From a virus: DNA of 33,276 bases. Position 1 is the stretch's first letter; each line of letters starts with the position of its first letter. The translations under genes were made by a program, and so were the position numbers. The notes beneath the pieces are model-generated. The model was not told the origin of the DNA, made no database searches, and worked only from the letters and a program-made list of their open reading frames with translations. The stretch spans positions 1 to 33,276 of the IMG/VR virus record IMGVR_UViG_3300025137_000010, one strand, 5' to 3'. Below are positions 1 through 33,276 of the stretch, in pieces.

Positions 1-99
1 GATCTCATTTAGTATTGCTACTATCTGATTTATATCTGTGATCTTAATTTTAAAAGTATCTTTCAGATCTATACCACAAAATATTTCAATCATTTTCTG
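1..99. repeat. Terminal direct repeat, left copy (contig overlap)
   Basis: Bases 1-99 are identical to 33178-33276. The repeat lies wholly inside one coding sequence and the reading frame continues across it. It is therefore best read as the overlap left when a circular or circularly permuted genome is assembled, not as a biological terminal repeat. Confidence 0.9.
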
Positions 100-207
100 T
101 GCTACAAACATTCCGTCACCATTATCCTTTTGCACCTTTAAGAATTTCTGATACTGACCAAGTGTCAATTCACTTAATTCTGTTGGTACGTTTACTGAAA
201 GTTTCAT
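1..207 (-). CDS. Tail assembly chaperone, N-terminal part (gene crosses the circular junction)
   Basis: This is the 5' end of a gene that continues across the contig junction into 33177-32725. The ATG at 207-205 reads MKLSVNVPTELSELTLGQYQ and stays open to position 1. Because bases 1-99 equal 33178-33276, the frame joins exactly to the segment at the other end, giving a 219-aa frame-0 product and, after a -1 shift, a 250-aa product. The start is supported by an ATTATATA box three bases upstream and by a terminator behind it, so this gene opens a transcription unit. By analogy with lambda G/GT, such proteins coat or recruit the tape measure during tail assembly. The chaperone assignment rests mainly on the frameshift architecture and on the C-terminal half typical of Bacteroidota phages. 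Confidence 0.85.
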   Translation of the reverse strand, partial: MKLSVNVPTELSELTLGQYQKFLKVQKDNGDGMFVAQKMIEIFCGIDLKDTFKIKITDINQIVAILNEI

Positions 208-210
208 AAG

Positions 211-238
211 TATATAATACCAAATTAAGTATTTTTTA
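211..238 (-). promoter_or_regulatory. Candidate phage late promoter, chaperone gene
   Basis: On the minus strand TAAAAAATA (238-230) is followed by 11 nt, ATTATATA (218-211), three bases and the ATG at 207. The same arrangement precedes four other structural genes. Here a sigma70-like reading is also possible: TTGATA (242-237), 17 nt, TATTAT (219-214). It lies directly behind a rho-independent terminator. A start about 7 nt after the box would make the mRNA nearly leaderless. Confidence 0.6.
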
Positions 239-240
239 TC

Positions 241-276
241 AATAAAAAAAGAGGGACATCTACGAACCCTCTTTAA
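241..276 (-). terminator. Rho-independent terminator after the 76-aa gene
   Basis: On the minus strand AAAGAGGG (274-267) pairs perfectly with CCCTCTTT (255-248) across an 11-nt loop and is followed by a T run. It ends transcription coming from 534-304 and from the terminase direction, just before the chaperone promoter and gene. Confidence 0.85.
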
Positions 277-17961: not shown

Positions 17962-19731
17962 TTAAAATGCTTTACCTTTCGGTGTTTTAAAATCTTTCTT
18001 TTTATCAAAACCCCTGTTAACCATATCTCTAGGTCTTGTTGCTACTTTTTTATTGTTAGTTTCAGGTGTAAAACCTTCTTGTTTTGCTTTACTAACACTT
18101 GACTTTGATCTAGGATTTTTAGGATCAGGGCTTACTGTTTTACTCATATAAACTCTACGTTCCCAGTAGTGTCTACAAGATCCACCACCTTTATATAACC
18201 ATATATCATAAGTATCTGCTCCACCTTTTCCCCAACCTTTGTTAACTGGCTTACTAGTTAACTGTTGTATATCTTCTTTTCTATATATCTTATTAGCTTG
18301 TACCATTTTTCTACAAAACTCTCTTGTATCACCGTCAAATTCTTGTGGTGCATATTGGTATCTTACTTTATACTTCCAACCTTTTTTATTTTCACCATCT
18401 TGATCACTTTTTGCCATAGGTCTTGCAGATCCAGTAGAAGCTAATTCTAACTTTTTATTTAAGTCATCATCTATGTCATAATCTACTGGTGCTGATTCTA
18501 CTAATTCCCATTCTTCTAAATCTTCTTCTTCTCCTAAAGCAATAAACTCACCTAATGCAGTTACTTCAGATAACTCGTTTTTATCTGTCTCTACTCCTGT
18601 TTCTTCTTCTCTAGTTTCATCATCTACAATATTACCTTCTAAATCTGTAAATTCTAAAGGTTGTAATGTTTTAAAATATAAGTTTAGAGAAATATTATTA
18701 AAAGCTAGTATAGAATCTAATGCGTCTAATATATATTCTTGCTGTACTCTTATTACCATATTATCAAAGAGTATACTTGCTTGTTTTAACTCATCTGCGT
18801 TTGATCCTAAGCCATTATTTCCTGTTCTAATACCTAATAGTAGTGGCGAAGATAATCTGTGTCCTACAAGGATTTTATTTGTAGATTCATCACTTAAAAA
18901 TTGATATTGATTGTGTGCGTCAGATAATTGTACAGGATCTACAGTTGCAGCACTTTCAGAATTGTCATTAAATGCTAATATAAATTTACCAGCGTTACTA
19001 GTTCCACTAAACTTTTCATATATTCTTCTTTCTATTAATTCTCTAGCTTCTTCATCAGGAGTACCATTGTTAAAATTTAATAACATAGTGGGACTTAGTC
19101 CTGTTTGTATATTATTAATATGATAGTTTGCAACTTCTGCTTCTAACTCACAATATGGTAACGCACCTTGATATGTAACTGGTGTGTAGTAAAAATAACC
19201 TGCTCTATATGGTTTAATACACAAAATCTCTATTGCATTATTACCACTACCAAATGCAGGTATTCTTTTTGCTTCGTCTCTAGGTGTATATTTTGACCAA
19301 TCGTGGAAATAATAGAAACCTTTTATCTCACCATTTTTATCAGCTTTTTCTGCACGTAAAGTTTGTACTGGGAAATGTTCTACTTTCACAATTTTACTAC
19401 GGTCTACATTATAGTATACTTGTAATGTAGCTTGTCCTAATAAATAAAAATCAGAACATATTTTTTTTAACTCATCTTTTTTAAATAATGTTACTGCTTC
19501 TGCATAAGCCAATGGCTTTTTATTGCTGTTTGTTGCAGCTAAACCTTTACCGTATATCATTTCAGTTATACCATTAATAATTGCATTATTTGTAGGACTT
19601 CCTTGATATTGGTCTATTAGGAATTGGTAATAATTATTATCTTCACCGTATGCTACAAACTTATCTCGTTTGTTTTCTGTAATCTTTGGTGCTGTATATG
19701 TATTTAAATTTACTACTCTAATTTTGCTCAT
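17962..19731 (-). CDS. Portal protein with extra C-terminal domain
   Basis: A 589-aa protein. The N-terminal ~380 residues (FVAYGEDNNYYQFLIDQYQG, then SPTNNAIINGITEMIYGKGL, later LSSPLLLGIRTGNNGLGSNA) are portal-like: a dodecameric ring at the capsid vertex through which DNA passes. After an acidic linker rich in Glu and Asp (about 375-430), a second domain has FCRKMVQANKIYRKEDIQQL, YDIWLYKGGGSCRHYWERRV and a basic tail. Similar Cys/His-containing tails occur in portal or minor-head proteins of Bacteroidota phages. It overlaps the 143-aa gene by one base. Confidence 0.8.
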   Translation of the reverse strand: MSKIRVVNLNTYTAPKITENKRDKFVAYGEDNNYYQFLIDQYQGSPTNNAIINGITEMIYGKGLAATNSNKKPLAYAEAVTLFKKDELKKICSDFYLLGQATLQVYYNVDRSKIVKVEHFPVQTLRAEKADKNGEIKGFYYFHDWSKYTPRDEAKRIPAFGSGNNAIEILCIKPYRAGYFYYTPVTYQGALPYCELEAEVANYHINNIQTGLSPTMLLNFNNGTPDEEARELIERRIYEKFSGTSNAGKFILAFNDNSESAATVDPVQLSDAHNQYQFLSDESTNKILVGHRLSSPLLLGIRTGNNGLGSNADELKQASILFDNMVIRVQQEYILDALDSILAFNNISLNLYFKTLQPLEFTDLEGNIVDDETREEETGVETDKNELSEVTALGEFIALGEEEDLEEWELVESAPVDYDIDDDLNKKLELASTGSARPMAKSDQDGENKKGWKYKVRYQYAPQEFDGDTREFCRKMVQANKIYRKEDIQQLTSKPVNKGWGKGGADTYDIWLYKGGGSCRHYWERRVYMSKTVSPDPKNPRSKSSVSKAKQEGFTPETNNKKVATRPRDMVNRGFDKKKDFKTPKGKAF

Positions 19732-20162
19732 TAGCTTATTATTATATAGTCATCATCAGGATAACTTGTTGTTTCTGTATATACTCCGTTGTTAATTGTG
19801 TAATAGTCATTGTTTGATTGATCTATTGTTTGATCAGTACAAAATACTTTATCTAAATATACATCATTTTCAGATGAAATTATATTTTCCCAATTTTCTG
19901 TAGCTGCTTCCCATTTAGTTGTAAATTGATTCCACAAAGCACCAATACCTTCTATAATTTTTAAATCATAAAACCTACCTTCTACTAATGTGTATGTAGT
20001 AGATACTGTTGCATTGTCTTTTACTCTTGTTAATGTTACGTTTTGTGTTCTAGTAGTAGTATTAGTGCTGTTATCTCTTATAGATACAGTAACACTTGAC
20101 GGATATGCTCTCGGTGTAAATGTTAATGTTTGTGCAGCAGCACTAGTTGTTAGAATCTTCAT
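19731..20162 (-). CDS. Structural protein upstream of portal (143 aa)
   Basis: Beta-rich protein starting MKILTTSAAAQTLTFTPRAY, with Thr-rich strands (SIRDNSTNTTTRTQNVTLTR) and an acidic Tyr-rich end. Proteins like it lie next to portal or tail genes in Bacteroidota phages and are probably virion components; function unknown. It is the first gene after a terminator and has the A-tract / ATTATATA / ATG late-promoter arrangement, so it opens the portal transcription unit. Confidence 0.65.
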   Translation of the reverse strand: MKILTTSAAAQTLTFTPRAYPSSVTVSIRDNSTNTTTRTQNVTLTRVKDNATVSTTYTLVEGRFYDLKIIEGIGALWNQFTTKWEAATENWENIISSENDVYLDKVFCTDQTIDQSNNDYYTINNGVYTETTSYPDDDYIIIS

Positions 20163-20165
20163 AAT

Positions 20166-20193
20166 TATATAATAAAAAAAAACTTATTTTTTA
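20166..20193 (-). promoter_or_regulatory. Candidate phage late promoter, portal unit
   Basis: TAAAAAATA (20193-20185), 11 nt, ATTATATA (20173-20166), three bases, ATG at 20162 on the minus strand. It begins only a few bases after the T tract of the terminator at 20198-20229. Same architecture and spacing as the copy before the chaperone gene. Confidence 0.65.
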
Positions 20194-20835: not shown

Positions 20836-20877
20836 TTTTAAAAAAAAAGGTAGATAGTATAATGCCACCTACCTTTT
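20836..20877 (-). terminator. Rho-independent terminator after the major capsid gene
   Basis: AAAAGGTAG (20877-20869) pairs perfectly over nine bases with CTACCTTTT (20853-20845) on the minus strand, followed by a long T run. It separates the major capsid gene from the major tail gene. Confidence 0.87.
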
Positions 20878-32188: not shown

Positions 32189-32655
32189 ATATTTTGATCA
32201 TTAGGTATTTCTATATTTAAATCTGCATTCCAACCTGCTAGATTATTTTCAAACCTATCTACAAATGGTTCACAGCTAGGATCATTAGTTAACTTATATC
32301 CTTGTGTAGATAAATCTCCAAACCTTAGTTTTTGTATTAATAAATTTAAAACTCCTAATTGTGTGTTAAGTATATCTTGTTCGTCTGTATTCTTTCTGAA
32401 CTTATCAACTTCTTTGTATTTACTTGTGTCTTTAATATCCATAACTAATACAGTTATATTATATACAAGTGTCTGTTGTGTTGATACTACGCTGTTTACA
32501 ATAAAGTGTGCTAAGGGAAATATAGTTTGTTTACCTAGATCTACTTCTGTTACATCACCTATTGTTACTGTCTTTGTAATATTGTTACTTAATAATGAAC
32601 TTTCTAATAATTCACTTATTTTGTAATACGATCTAATTGCTATGTTTCCTTGCAT
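32182..32655 (-). CDS. Tail terminator/completion-like protein (157 aa)
   Basis: Contains FIVNSVVSTQQTLVYNITVL, MDIKDTSKYKEVDKF, TDEQDILNTQLGVLN and SCEPFVDRFENNLAGWNADL ending in IPNDQNIC. This combination is a well-conserved pattern in Bacteroidota phages beside tail genes, usually a minor tail or terminator protein. Its ATG lies inside the -1 frame of the chaperone extension (23-nt overlap), so ribosomes finishing the frameshift product pass this start. Confidence 0.65.
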   Translation of the reverse strand: MQGNIAIRSYYKISELLESSLLSNNITKTVTIGDVTEVDLGKQTIFPLAHFIVNSVVSTQQTLVYNITVLVMDIKDTSKYKEVDKFRKNTDEQDILNTQLGVLNLLIQKLRFGDLSTQGYKLTNDPSCEPFVDRFENNLAGWNADLNIEIPNDQNIC

Positions 32656-32908
32656 TTGATTTTAATTCTGCTTTTTCTACTTCACCTTTTTCTTTAATGT
32701 ATAATAATACAGTTAATGCTTTTGTTAATTTCTCCCTAGTGATATTCTCGAATTCTGTAATACTTCCTTTAGCGAGTTCGTAAATTGCTGAATACCACCC
32801 CCACCTTTTATGGAATTGAGCTGTTCTGTCGAAAGATTCTCCATCTCCTGATCCGTTAAATAATCCATCATATTGCTCGACAATTCGATTCCTAAATTGT
32901 AAAAAAAA
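32633..32908 (-). CDS. Frame -1 extension of the tail assembly chaperone (programmed frameshift)
   Basis: A slip on T-TTT-TTT (32908-32902, within a run of nine T) moves ribosomes into a -1 frame that had a TAG only five codons earlier, in TTTTAGTTC, and is then open for 89 codons to a TAG at 32635. The extension includes FDRTAQFHKRWGWYSAIYEL, then AKGSITEFENITREKLTKAL, typical of the second half of tail assembly chaperones in this phage group. The full product would be 161 + 89 = 250 aa. The arrangement parallels lambda G/GT. Confidence 0.8.
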   Translation of the reverse strand, partial: FFLQFRNRIVEQYDGLFNGSGDGESFDRTAQFHKRWGWYSAIYELAKGSITEFENITREKLTKALTVLLYIKEKGEVEKAELKSNARKHSN

Positions 32909-33276
32909 ACCACTGAACTAAAACAAACATCTAATGGCATATCTTTCATAGTATCACTTTCTAATCCTTCGTAGTCAACTATGTTATACTTCTCCTTATG
33001 TTTTTGTGCTATTGGTCTATAGAGCACGTTCATAGCTTTGTGCATTTCGTCCCAATTTTGCATAAAGGTTTCTATGTCTACGTATTCTCCTAATGATATA
33101 TCTTCTAACACTGGTATAAAACCATACTCTAAGTTGTTTAGTTTAAACTTATGTATTAAGTCAGGTTTAATTTCTAAGATCTCATTTAGTATTGCTACTA
33201 TCTGATTTATATCTGTGATCTTAATTTTAAAAGTATCTTTCAGATCTATACCACAAAATATTTCAATCATTTTCTG
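32725..33276 (-). CDS. Tail assembly chaperone, frame-0 C-terminal part (open at window end)
   Basis: Continuation of the gene that starts at 207; in this copy the 5' end runs off the window. Codons MPLDVCFSSVVFFYNLGIEL contain the T9 slippery run at VVFFY. Without slipping, translation ends GGGGIQQFTNSLKEVLQNSR followed by a short tail, giving 219 aa in all. The internal Met at 33270 is not the true start, since the frame is open through it. The ratio of short to long product normally matters for tail assembly. Confidence 0.85.
   Translation of the reverse strand, partial: QKMIEIFCGIDLKDTFKIKITDINQIVAILNEILEIKPDLIHKFKLNNLEYGFIPVLEDISLGEYVDIETFMQNWDEMHKAMNVLYRPIAQKHKEKYNIVDYEGLESDTMKDMPLDVCFSSVVFFYNLGIELSSNMMDYLTDQEMENLSTEQLNSIKGGGGIQQFTNSLKEVLQNSRISLGRN
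33178..33276. repeat. Terminal direct repeat, right copy (contig overlap)
   Basis: Exact copy of bases 1-99. Removing one copy gives a circle of about 33,177 bp in which the chaperone gene is intact. The 99-base length resembles an assembly k-mer overlap; this is an inference. Confidence 0.9.

Follow-up and report, generated by a model that had tools for sequence, protein, structure and literature searches.

A conserved nine-T run and two overlapping reading frames in a probable tail gene of Bacteroidota-type phages

Frame switching in phage tail genes is already known, as is slippage at T runs in bacterial genes. The tail assembly chaperones gpG and gpGT of phage lambda depend on the slip site G_GGA_AAG. 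Gene E of phage P2 is annotated with a translational -1 shift at T_TTT_TTG. Many tailed phages use ribosomal -1 shifts in their tail chaperone genes, and the passages cited from PMC5009743 describe frame switching in such genes as ribosomal. Transcriptional realignment includes, in the cited part of PMC3711429, a class written as 'Tn, n > 8', which the run described below fits. The site itself is unreported in the portions available of the literature found on transcriptional or polymerase slippage in tail genes and on phages of Bacteroidetes or Flavobacterium. What is new here is the combination of both phenomena in a large phage family, with a rule of run length replacing the heptamer.

Layout of the locus

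The window, that is, the whole 33,276-bp viral record analysed, carries a 99-bp direct terminal repeat (positions 1-99 equal 33178-33276), an indication that the genome is probably complete and either circular or circularly permuted. The gene of interest spans the joint at this repeat. Its start is the ATG at minus 207, so the true start lies across the repeat, 38 codons further upstream than the ORF visible in the window, and the frame-0 product has 219 aa (Table 1). Close relatives have the same start and N terminus of the two-product gene on contiguous DNA.

The original prediction had read the site correctly. On the minus strand, frame 0 is GTG GTT TTT TTT TAC with the heptamer T_TTT_TTT in frame, and the -1 frame has a TAG five codons upstream of the run. 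Past the site, 89 codons are open in the -1 frame, which terminates 23 bases into the next gene (TAG at 32635-32633, next ATG at 32655). Beyond that prediction, frame 0 was found to continue for 57 codons past the run, to a TAA at 32727-32725 (minus strand). The distance from the upstream -1 stop to the run varies from 4 to 27 codons in the aligned relatives. Runs of eight or more Ts are not rare in this window of 31% GC (16 matches, against 15 expected from shuffling), so the evidence lies in the conservation of the run and not in the run alone.

Table 1. Positions of the two-product gene and its neighbouring features in the window
Feature	Positions	Strand	Remarks
First 38 codons of the gene (MKLSVNVPTELSELTLGQYQ...)	94..207	-	Open frame between the ATG at minus 207 and MIEIFCG, via the 99-bp repeat into 33270
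Frame-0 ORF visible in the window	32725..33270	-	181 aa from MIEIFCG; full product 219 aa
T9 run, slip site (NTT TTT TTT TNN)	32901..32909	-	Read directly; nine or more Ts in all 341 distinct sequences
Frame-0 tail past the run	32725..32900	-	57 codons, dual-coding with the -1 frame
-1 extension (FFLQFRNRIVEQY...WGWYSAIYELAKG...)	32633..32908	-	Stop included; 89 codons from LQF; WGWY domain conserved
Next gene, 157 aa	32182..32655	-	ATG at 32655; -1 extension overlaps 23 bases; phrog_30964, unknown function
Terminator-like hairpin, then T run	251..271	-	Upstream of the gene; sequence reading only

The genetic context analysis placed the terminases, followed by a 76-aa ORF, upstream of the two-product gene on the same strand. 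Downstream lie ORFs of 157, 191, 351, 1427 and 50 aa, a 590-aa protein that is the probable tape measure, and then the protease, capsid and portal genes; the tape-measure and capsid names are partly inference. The 157-aa next gene is a probable tail or neck gene. In the Nonlabens phage P12024L, the counterpart gene directly follows the large terminase. The hosts or sources named among the relatives are the Nonlabens phages and one contig of a Bacteroidetes MAG.

Several other features of the window were recorded. An AT-rich, promoter-like stretch (199-228, minus strand) lies between the terminator-like hairpin and the ATG of the gene, and a TATTATATAATTATG leader similar to the one before the two-product gene also precedes the ORF at 19731-20162. 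On the plus strand, an ORF of 236 aa (852-1562), without a Pfam match, is situated between the terminase and the 76-aa gene in a stretch that is otherwise coded on the minus strand, and it is possibly an inserted gene. T9 runs also occur on the minus strand at 20174-20182 and 20840-20848, both between ORFs, the latter after a hairpin-like repeat and terminator-like in appearance. An A9 run at 517-525 falls within codons four to six of the minus-strand 76-aa gene (ATG GAA GCT AAA AAA AAA GAA), where it stands despite the depletion of such runs in the coding sequence of these phages.

Conservation of the run and coding in both frames

Seven collection searches, two Nonlabens records and the window together provided 477 sequences, which were reduced to 341 distinct ones by removing only exact duplicates around the site before counting; the representative sets used below depend on greedy clustering. 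The run was uninterrupted in all 341, with nine Ts in 289, ten in 51 and twelve in one, and frame 0 and the -1 frame had the same mutual relation in every one of them. The most distant relatives with the site were the Nonlabens phages, at 27% protein identity; the site of P12024L reads CTT TTT TTT TAT CAT TTA GGG, and its -1 WGWY domain is annotated as a separate ORF. Sixty-eight distinct sequences were found only by a search with patterns that do not touch the site, and at least nine Ts were present in each of the 68. Relatives that lack the run or carry stops in the -1 frame, which would have spoken against the original prediction, were looked for among these sequences and none was found.

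The codon phase of the run was not fixed: it starts at codon position 2 in 320 of the distinct sequences, at position 1 in 17 and at position 3 in four. In L336, L340, L368 and L395, one 5' T is lost through a first codon GGT, GGT, GCT or GAT, and the two following TTT codons are succeeded by TTG, TTT, TTC and TTG, which brings the run back to nine or ten. These four sequences are mutually diverged (N-terminal identities of 35/94 to 42/98), and the chance of four such 3' compensations is, by a rough hand estimate and not a computed test, about 1 in 10,000, given that TTN makes up roughly 11% of the codons there. L128, with TTT TTT TTT CTG, is compensated in the opposite direction. The usual 5' T (V, L, I and F codons) and 3' T (Y, W, F, L, S and C codons) could partly reflect residue preference, against which the compensated sequences, five only, argue. 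As read from the aligned sequences, conservation extends beyond the heptamer to an unbroken stretch of nine or more Ts, which occurs in each of the three codon phases.

Judged by codon statistics, both frames are under selection. When the frame-0 protein was fixed and synonymous codons were redrawn, the -1 frame of the window was open over the 57-codon overlap in 0.3% of 20,000 draws, and the mean of the same draw in 35 diverse sequences was 1.9%; a chance overlap of the frames was ruled out by this test. With the -1 protein fixed, frame 0 was open as far as observed with a median P of 0.011, and P was below 0.05 in 91% of 80 sequences. Third-position differences per site fell from 0.34 to 0.21 in the overlap within the clade of the window (15 sequences). 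The mean pairwise identity of 80 representatives was 45% in the N-terminal stretch before the run, 48% in the -1 domain and 37% in the frame-0 tail. In 35 of 35 representatives, the first stop of the third frame came 0 to 5 codons past the run.

Among 80 relatives examined, the ATG of the next gene was found in 75; in 64 of these it is overlapped by the -1 stop, usually by four bases or one. In 111 of 132 distinct sequences, the stretch from the last -1 stop to the WGWY motif contains no ATG, GTG or TTG, and conservation of the -1 frame begins directly at the run; its likely use is therefore in a fused product. The annotations of P12024L (P12024L_41) and P12024S instead imply two separate genes, with the WGWY domain made alone from an internal start and no fusion produced. 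Since the -1 frame is open and conserved from the run onwards and a start codon is absent in those 111 sequences, the internal start was rejected and this arrangement is very improbable. An equally poor prospect is phase variation at the DNA level, in which gain or loss of a T in the genome would toggle the fusion between phages. Long homopolymers mutate easily, but there was no in-frame fusion allele among the WGWY-anchored sequences (146 distinct and 78 new distinct), on which ground genomic phase variation was rejected; the sole sequence with an open -1 frame exceeding 40 codons upstream is L278 (48), in which frame 0 is open for 164 codons upstream. The sequences give good support to a gene with two products that share an N-terminal domain. 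Of the programmed switch put forward in the original prediction, the conserved change of frame, which would append the WGWY domain to the shared N-terminal domain in 341 of 341 sequences, was upheld; the action of the ribosome at the heptamer is the less favoured mechanism.

Polymerase or ribosome at the slip site

In a ribosomal programmed -1 frameshift, two Phe tRNAs on TTT TTT would slip back one base at T_TTT_TTT. The precedents in tailed phages and the P2 annotation cited above speak for it, as does the in-frame heptamer in 341 of 341 distinct sequences. Every nine-T run contains an in-frame T_TTT_TTT, which accounts for that count, and the sequence alone is compatible with the ribosome. 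Against the ribosomal mechanism, the heptamer needs only seven Ts, whereas runs of seven or eight are absent among the 341 and none is shorter than nine, and the codon phase of the run varies with compensation.

A further argument comes from silent sites. At the last base of the heptamer, C could replace T without altering either protein (Phe TTC; Leu CTA or CTG), but in 97 representatives below 70% identity C was found there at 0 of 80 suited sites, in comparison to 30 of 103 control doubly silent sites downstream. The Fisher p was 4e-9 at 70% identity, 7.8e-6 at 60%, 0.014 at 50% and 0.12 at 45%, the last (11 vs 0, control 12 vs 4) not being significant, and these values are inflated by kinship because the control-site test, like the codon-usage tests, treats related sequences as independent. 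TTC just before TAC or TAT does occur, in the class with a run of ten; as the second Phe codon, where it would be doubly silent, it never shortens the run.

Long runs were depleted elsewhere in these phages. Across the 1,029 other genes of the same contigs, T8 was seen 5 times against 38.2 expected and T9 or longer twice against 16.8, and A9 or longer 8 times against 53.9. T7 was depleted at least as strongly in the phase that lacks the heptamer (7 vs 24.0 expected) as in the phase that contains it (40 vs 82.5), and there was hardly any depletion of A7 in the A_AAA_AAA phase (115 vs 124.7). DNA replication errors or assembly could also cause this depletion of long runs.

Signals that could assist a ribosome were also sought. 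The mean z of downstream structure just after the run was -0.26 and -0.18 in 47 representatives, in a search to which some pseudoknots are invisible, and the RNAalifold consensus past the run in the same set was empty; a structure-stimulated shift, which left no signal in this set, was dropped. The site had no match in Rfam, and no column was conserved at 95% in the 15 bases upstream of the run. According to the cited part of PMC9976891, Shine-Dalgarno sequences are not recognised by Bacteroidia ribosomes, so a stimulator of that kind is unlikely. The passages cited from PMC5009743 report ribosomal shifts without stimulators in some tailed phages and describe U_UUU_UUU in E. coli as far less shift-prone than A_AAA_AAG. 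Taken together, a length rule free of codon phase and the lack of any stimulatory structure in the search favour slippage by RNA polymerase over ribosomal slippage, short of proof. On balance, slippage of the polymerase, alone or as the main cause, is probable from the sequence pattern, and a ribosomal -1 frameshift is possible but somewhat improbable.

We propose that the gene stands first in the probable tail module of a phage of Bacteroidota type. The majority of messages would be read in frame 0 to give the shared helical domain with a short, probably flexible tail of 57 residues. On the nine-T/nine-A template, the host RNA polymerase would slip and leave a minority of messages with one extra U; these would be read in the -1 frame, yielding the shared domain with a WGWY domain of about 80-90 residues fused to it. 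The ribosome may also slip by -1 on these Us and raise the yield, and the two products would probably act as the lambda gpG/gpGT pair does in tail assembly. We assign a probability of about 0.58 to this proposal as a whole, namely a two-product gene with polymerase slippage on T9 and a gpG/gpGT-like role in tail assembly.

If so, three kinds of message would arise from one gene: the frame-0 message, the message with one extra U, which encodes the fusion, and one in the third frame, stopping soon after the run. Slippage by the polymerase would fix the product ratio during transcription, and these genes, which the only named relatives found show as a pair of hypothetical ORFs, would need re-annotation. 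That hundreds of related phages keep a signal ruled by length and not by codon phase points to the polymerase. There is an even chance that a widespread, uncultured Bacteroidota phage family sets the ratio of its two tail-chaperone-like proteins by polymerase slippage on T9, and not through the ribosome, in hosts whose ribosomes make no use of Shine-Dalgarno sequences. The Nonlabens phage P12024L offers a cultured system, so the question is directly testable.

Identity of the protein and comparison with known systems

The designation of the gene as a tail assembly chaperone in the original prediction is likely in view of its architecture, but the sequence and fold comparisons do not establish this identity, and the 590-aa tape-measure candidate is not adjacent, as the five ORFs listed above precede it. 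For the latter reason, the gene is not filed as a member of the gpG/gpGT type but only as one that works like that pair, which it quite probably does.

The frame-0 model of the relative L010, built with 49 sequences, had pLDDT block means of 82-96 for residues 1-160, followed by 77 falling to 37, and the helix holding the slip site runs through it. The -1 domain alone was modelled as helical with low confidence (mean pLDDT 58.9), so its fold search carries little weight. In a Foldseek search of the N-terminal model against BFVD, 39 rows reached E 0.001 or better, and all of them lacked a functional name; the tail assembly chaperone in row 45 (E 0.031) and the tail assembly protein in row 47 (E 0.19) were both weak matches. 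The PDB sequence and fold searches gave nothing significant, with no row at E 0.001 or better, and there was no significant match in Pfam; Pfam and PHROGs yielded only families of unknown function for the gene and the -1 domain. Matches to phrog_166 ('tail protein') with E values up to 1 were obtained for 19 of 49 members, the best at 1.8e-4, and P2 gpE also matched this family. This link was dropped because L059 and gpE fall on different parts of the profile (positions 134-194 vs 14-97; one family alignment position) and because the direct comparison of the family profile with gpE by hhalign failed (E 0.42 over 14 columns). Klebsiella phage rows from tblastn (E 0.8-3) were weak and were also dropped. 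As a separate observation, the 258-aa viral protein A0A516L611 in BFVD was matched by both the N-terminal and the -1 domain models; possible explanations are a fusion in frame or a joined product that was annotated as such.

The frame switch could also be real in a gene that is no tail assembly chaperone, for instance one encoding a neck or head-completion protein of two lengths, a reading compatible with any mechanism. The position of the gene, after the terminase region and five ORFs ahead of the probable tape measure, agrees with this, as does the want of significant PDB and Pfam matches. Nevertheless, tail chaperones typically show two-product switching that adds a -1 domain, the downstream ORFs appear tail-like, and the two weak BFVD rows point to tail assembly, which makes a role other than that of a tail assembly chaperone rather unlikely.

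Among the described systems, lambda gpG/gpGT is alike in its shared N-terminal domain, its -1 switch and an extension that runs into the beginning of the next gene, as in the overlap of lambda T and H. The present gene differs from it in having a nine-T run, in a frame 0 that extends 57 codons past the site and in a next gene that is not the tape measure, and no homology was found in the comparisons made. Gene E of P2 (E/E+E') likewise has a -1 switch at a T-rich site, annotated as translational, but that site contains six Ts. The Shigella genes mxiE and spa13, examples of programmed transcriptional realignment described in the cited parts of PMC5009743 and PMC3711429, have in common with the present locus an uninterrupted T or A run at or above a length threshold, and in spa13 also a C-terminal extension overlapping the next gene; in contrast, they are bacterial secretion genes with measured slippage, whereas slippage here is proposed from the sequence. 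The direct relatives are ORFs 40/41 of Nonlabens phage P12024L and 38/39 of P12024S, which share the CTT TTT TTT TAT site and the -1 domain, while being annotated as two hypothetical proteins and having a shorter frame-0 tail.
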